From positions 3,297,001-3,361,000 of the forward strand of contig NZ_AP013294.1 in assembly GCF_000829195.1 (NCBI RefSeq): a stretch of DNA of 64,000 bases, given 5' to 3'. The notes under the pieces were generated by a model. It did no database searches and was not told where the DNA came from. It saw nothing but the letters and a program-made list of their open reading frames with translations. Source of the stretch: Bacillus sp. OxB-1. GTDB taxonomy: Bacteria; Bacillota; Bacilli; Bacillales_A; Planococcaceae. The translations under genes and the position numbers were made by a program. Shown here in pieces: positions 18,776 through 19,330 of the stretch; position 1 is the first letter of the stretch; every line of letters starts with the position of its first letter.

Positions 18776-18834
18776 TCCAAAGACCTCCTTAAAGTATGTA
18801 ATGACTAGCTTGAACTTCTGTTTCGATGACGGAT

Positions 18835-19062
18835 GTGGCAGTTCGAAGTGGCAGTTGCGGATTTTGCCACGACAGTTCCGGATTTCTCCATGACAGTTCG
18901 CACTTTTGCCATGACAGTTCCGCTGCCCCCTGACAGTTTGCCCGAGTGCCATGACAGTCACAGGTTTCCCCATGACAGTTCGCGCTTTTGCCACGACAGT
19001 TCCGCTGCCCCATGACAGTTTGCCCGAGTGCCATGACAGTCACAGATTGCCCCCTGTCAGTC
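18835..19062. repeat. Phased word array B: GACAGT every 19-21 bp in the tyrS leader
   Basis: GACAGT starts at 18871, 18892, 18913, 18932, 18953, 18974, 18995, 19014 and 19035, with degenerate copies on both flanks. The steps are 21, 21, 19, 21, 21, 21, 19 and 21. The 82-bp block of four words is itself duplicated (18892 to 18974, 18913 to 18995, 18932 to 19014, 18953 to 19035). The array lies downstream of the T-box terminator and upstream of the tyrS ribosome site, so it is part of the tyrS mRNA leader. Confidence 0.92.
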
Positions 19063-19096
19063 CCAACATACCAATCGTCAATCGTGCAAGGAAATT

Positions 19097-19330
19097 AAAA
19101 AAGCCCCCGCACGATTCGAAACGAATCATGCAGGGACGCTAATGTGTGAATTAACGCGGTACCACCCGGCTTGAGAATATAATCTCCACCTCAAAAACGC
19201 CATAACGCTGCGCCTGCGCACACTCCAAAGCTGTAATTCATGAACGATGTACCGGACAGCTTGCACCAACCGCTGCCTCTCTCTACGGATCGACCGTCAC
19301 TACTTCGACTTTTTCAATATGTGAAAAAAT
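19097..19330 (-). promoter_or_regulatory. Tyr T-box leader of tyrS
   Basis: Minus strand. The conserved T-box GGGTGGTACCGCG is at 19155-19167. The terminator at 19097-19134 is a long stem ending in TTTTTT. The specifier reads TAC (Tyr) in the context GAATTACAG (19233-19235). Uncharged tRNA-Tyr should pair here and stabilise the antiterminator, so tyrS is read through when tyrosine is short. Confidence 0.93.

Follow-up and report, generated by a model that had tools for sequence, protein, structure and literature searches.

A degenerate repeat array between the T-box terminator and tyrS of Bacillus sp. OxB-1 is probably a passenger from a genome-wide repeat family

The leader of tyrS in Bacillus sp. 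OxB-1 carries a degenerate tandem array between its T-box terminator and the start codon. This array is most probably (at roughly three in four) a passive passenger that settled in a tolerant gap. It belongs to a family of degenerate repeats that is specific to the lineage and spread through the genome. The family, built from a core of 10-12 nt and a variable spacer in units of 21 nt with a 19 nt variant, accumulates in gaps beside intrinsic terminators, and the neighbouring terminator here simply happens to be the tyrS T-box attenuator. Since the terminator is the attenuator, the array comes to lie in the 5´ UTR of tyrS and would be transcribed only upon antitermination.

The stretch analysed, 64,000 nt in length and called the window below, belongs to a complete genome of 3.59 Mb (G000) from the Sporosarcina group. 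On its minus strand, promoter, Tyr T-box, intrinsic terminator, 321 nt with the array, Shine-Dalgarno sequence and tyrS ATG (18775) follow each other in this order:

19342..19369, minus strand: promoter-like site TTGACA-16-TACAAT, 11 of 12 consensus matches, 5´ of the T-box, identical in the sister species G035
19129..19326, minus strand: tyrS T-box leader (Rfam RF00230, 94.6 bits, E 1.8e-19, gathering score 93)
19249..19251, minus strand: probable Tyr specifier, the UAC of GGUACA, in the 3´ side of Stem I, read from the sequence against the Rfam alignment
about 19098..19137, minus strand: intrinsic terminator, stem 19137-19103 with 16 pairs, then TTTTTT; hairpin -27.4 kcal/mol
18824..19061, minus strand: tandem array of degenerate units; ten are clear, each with AACTGTCATGGC and a spacer of 9 or 11 nt, and decayed ones follow
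18782..18790, minus strand: Shine-Dalgarno sequence AAGGAGGTC, by sequence reading, kept in G035
17510..18775, minus strand: tyrS, an ORF of 421 amino acids with ATG start and the N-terminus MKNELMED

The covariance-model score of the T-box exceeds the gathering score of RF00230, and the T-box sequence is followed by a terminator and, downstream, by an aminoacyl-tRNA synthetase gene. Judged by its sequence, this is a predicted tyrosine-dependent antitermination leader sensing uncharged tRNA-Tyr, in which UAC in GGUACA is probably the tyrosine specifier codon, as assigned via established T-box anatomy. Control by a T-box is decided before the polymerase gets to the downstream array. The original prediction had placed the array between the T-box terminator and the tyrS start, and the coordinates agree (T-box 19326-19129, terminator 19137-19103, array 18852-19061, ATG 18775); the "about 320 nt" it gave for the way to tyrS measure 321 nt from the end of the T run to the ATG. 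It was also right that antiterminated transcripts must cross the array: a single strong promoter-like site exists, 5´ of the T-box and in a stretch near-identical in the sister species, and a consensus search revealed no internal promoter between array and tyrS. A second T-box of the window (55751-55970, 123.4 bits) lies 5´ of a gene with a leuS-like N-terminus; there, T run and ATG are 56 nt apart and the gap is without an array.

Tandem Repeats Finder delimits the tyrS array at 18852-19061, with periods of 21, 40, 42 and 82. Ten units, placed 21 or 19 nt apart, deviate from ACTGTCATGG at no more than two positions, and decayed units continue to about 18824. Repeats of other kinds are present in the window as well: a tandem array at 2235-2463, whose 65 nt unit includes inverted repeats, touches the end of an ORF and is unlike the 21 nt arrays, and an Asn/Gly-rich coding repeat at 22310-22417 lies at the C-terminus of a penicillin-binding-protein-like gene.

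The tyrS array is one member of a family. Exact ACTGTCATGG pairs were counted 31 times in G000, distributed over at least 11 loci, and not once in a reversed-pattern control, which puts the array well outside what chance would give. The family unit consists of AACTGTCATGGC and a variable spacer and measures 21 nt, sometimes 19 and almost never 20: pooled over 31 arrays, spacings of 21 nt were found 352 times, 19 nt 131 times, 18 nt four times and 20 nt three times. In the pooled 21 nt unit, AACTGTCATGGCAA is followed by about six variable bases and by GA; the spacer of the 19 nt variant is rich in GC. Between these arrays the identity is 0.84-0.88 for cores and 0.46-0.57 for spacers. Amplified blocks are 82 nt long in G000 and G035 and 61 nt in G006, neither length being divisible by three. 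The ACTGTCATGG family is carried by five of the 61 sampled genomes of the genus, and among about 85,000 species scanned, those outside the Sporosarcina group yielded only scattered matches of one or two pairs. Twenty 20-kb stretches plus the window contain about 13 arrays of this type per 464 kb, which extrapolates, very roughly, to about 100 arrays in G000. On each half of the chromosome, arrays are found in either orientation, as judged by eye, and a replication polarity was rejected. The literature searched contains no description of these arrays.

The sister species G035 allows the leader to be compared part by part. Promoter and T-box show 3 differences in about 334 positions (about 99% identical), whereas the array has 10 units in G000 and 29 in G035. 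A second orthologous array, with a flank that is 93% identical, has 7 versus 18 units. The repeat had been called an expanding one, which fits this labile copy number. Growth and shrinkage would proceed in multi-unit blocks of 82 nt, probably by slippage or unequal recombination. A constant promoter, T-box and Shine-Dalgarno sequence next to a varying array and frame is the pattern that a passenger would show.

The tyrS frame is free of stop codons for 264 nt upstream of the gene in G000 and is thus open through much of the array, as had been predicted. With the ATG codons it contains, this frame could be taken to encode an N-terminal extension of TyrS; such an extension is, however, very improbable. 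In G035, with its 96% identical orthologue, the open frame covers just 30 nt, neither block length (61 or 82 nt) is divisible by three, and a canonical Shine-Dalgarno sequence precedes the short start. We rejected the extension because the frame is not conserved. The open frame is better ascribed to the composition of the units, since several frames over the array are likewise open (minus 18789-19043, plus 18833-19015 and plus 18951-19142).

It had also been suggested that the array could slow or tune expression, or affect coupling. Tuning of tyrS could act by delaying or attenuating transcription, or by RNA structure or upstream AUGs that lower translation. The array is co-transcribed with tyrS, as far as the consensus search for promoters tells, its sense RNA folds more stably than shuffled sequences (z -2.8), and seven AUG triplets are found within the leader, three of them in the tyrS frame. 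Nevertheless, we consider tuning unlikely and did not retain the suggestion. The array differs threefold in length between the sister species in an otherwise unchanged leader, the frame upstream of tyrS is not conserved (264 versus 30 nt), and 58 of the 60 readable slots of the genus are without the array. Folding is inconsistent across the family: for the sense RNA of 22 arrays, z-scores against shuffles ranged from -5.3 to +1.9 with a mean of -1.3, and a conserved RNA structure was rejected on these grounds. In addition, the sense strand has more G than C (93 versus 72), which gives no hint of a Rho site. The output of tyrS would hardly change, because the T-box takes its decision upstream and a separate, conserved Shine-Dalgarno sequence is located next to the ATG. 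The stable folding of the tyrS array, seen in some but not all other arrays, is nonetheless a point against a pure passenger, and the array may have a modest effect on tyrS.

Orthologues of tyrS are present in all 61 sampled genomes of the genus, and in the 60 with a readable leader the median distance from terminator to Shine-Dalgarno sequence is 26 nt. The ACTGTCATGG array occupies this slot in G000 and its sister G035 only; at least four further lineages have unrelated elements in it. Longer slots contain hairpin elements in G064, G014, G081 and G033 and GTCTAG-type sequences in G002, G009, G031, G066 and G006. The hairpin core CAATTACGCC from the slots of G064 and G033 is itself dispersed, with 96 places in G014, 80 in G081, 76 in G064 and 6 in G033 (each palindromic place scored once). 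Furthermore, the valS and hisS T-box leaders of G000 and G035 (L169, L174, L181, L182) contain GCCTCCGG-ended hairpin elements between terminator and gene, and the length of the hisS slot differs between the two genomes. With such other elements in the same slot elsewhere, the region between terminator and Shine-Dalgarno sequence can be said to tolerate insertions.

The family tends to settle beside terminators. The arrays are intergenic and, according to simple ORF calling, located mostly between tandem or convergent genes. An intrinsic terminator pointing at the array lies within 60 nt of 20 of the 31 arrays, compared to 92 of 555 random intergenic points (16.6%; Fisher p 1.3e-8, related arrays not being fully independent), and the baseline for random places is 10.6%. 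Terminators directed away from the array were found at 11 of the 31. Genome-wide, family members flank ordinary terminators too. Since most arrays have a terminator, the tyrS case is typical in its sequence context, and the difference lies in the terminator being conditional. The original prediction had called the leader an odd place for a repeat; with unrelated elements in the same slot elsewhere, similar insertions at valS and hisS and arrays beside ordinary terminators, this description is not supported.

Arrays of the same architecture with other cores are common in G000. Within the window, a TGCAAGNAA-core array with units of about 21 nt is located at 14943-15181 on the minus strand, and a TATGRGCRYGG-core array with units of 20 or 21 nt at 41799-42090, directly adjoined by a TTATCAGC-type motif. 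Both cores occur at many loci in G000 and several in G035 and are absent from four other genomes tested; exact TGCAAGNAA pairs number 92 in G000 and 17 in G035. TAYCACCGA arrays are present in 17 of the 61 genus genomes, none of which has exact ACTGTCATGG pairs. An ungapped alignment of the different cores by eye is suggestive of a common ancestry, which we do not claim.

The strict 21/19 nt spacing and the kept core look constrained, and a purely passive repeat needs neither. The arrays might instead be phased sites for a putative DNA-binding factor, in which a unit of 21 nt would place the cores on the same face of the helix, two turns apart; the core would be selected and replaced as the factor diverged, and at tyrS one of these platforms would lie beside a terminator. 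This seems rather unlikely, but it is kept alive by the constant unit length, by a period common to unrelated cores (about 21 nt in 88 of 107 spacings for TGCAAGNAA, 48 of 53 for TTTATCACCGA and 38 of 53 for TTATGAGCGCGG) and by the apparent exclusion between species, ACTGTCATGG and TAYCACCGA cores never occurring together in the sampled genomes. Unit spacing is kept while spacers are near random, and neutral drift would be expected to give more indels; block duplication, which copies the spacing without selection, weakens this argument. Moreover, 19 nt is a non-integer number of helical turns, and several cores coexist in one genome. For the dispersed arrays of about 21 nt in the Sporosarcina group as a whole, we tentatively regard it as possible, though not likely, that they are phased DNA sites of an undescribed kind (or the product of active array building) at terminators, with a species-specific core and a recognising factor that co-evolve.

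If the tyrS array is a passenger, an apparently odd leader is explained without special regulation, and the space that separates a T-box terminator from its gene can be seen as a landing place for repeats. The repeat family follows a clear grammar of kept core, kept 21/19 nt spacing and random spacer, with cores that are species-specific, and this grammar makes the cause of the constant spacing directly testable.

Several known systems resemble parts of this arrangement. In CRISPR arrays a constant repeat also alternates with a variable spacer; however, their repeats are about 23-50 nt long with unique spacers, whereas the units here are far too short (core of 10-12 nt, spacers of 9 or 11 nt) and the spacers recur in blocks of 61 or 82 nt, and a CRISPR-like reading was rejected because of this recurrence within the array. 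REP and BIME elements have a palindromic unit; the pooled consensus here reads as non-palindromic and the RNA structure is inconsistent. The cyanobacterial LTRR and STRR are likewise tandem repeats dispersed through intergenic regions, but differ in unit length and sequence, and we know of no core-plus-variable-spacer grammar in them. An LTRR is located in an intergenic region studied along with the Nostoc hyp operon (PMC2408588). The mycobacterial MPTR likewise has 10 bp consensus repeats parted by short spacers (PMC1660551). Its spacers are 5 bp, giving a 15 bp period, and its repeats encode part of PPE proteins, whereas the arrays described here are intergenic, with spacers of 9 or 11 nt, periods of 19 and 21 nt, blocks of 61 and 82 nt and a frame that is not conserved. 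Bacterial minisatellites (VNTR, MIRU) share the intergenic head-to-tail units whose number varies between related genomes, here in a comparison between species (10 versus 29 units at tyrS, 7 versus 18 at the second array), but here each unit is degenerate and combines a fixed core with a variable spacer, and many unlinked loci carry the same core. The leader itself is like other Tyr T-box leaders (RF00230) in its Stem I with a UAC specifier, T-box sequence, terminator, Shine-Dalgarno sequence and downstream tyrS, and is unlike them in the roughly 300 nt of tandem repeats that fill a gap of usually about 26 nt in the genus.
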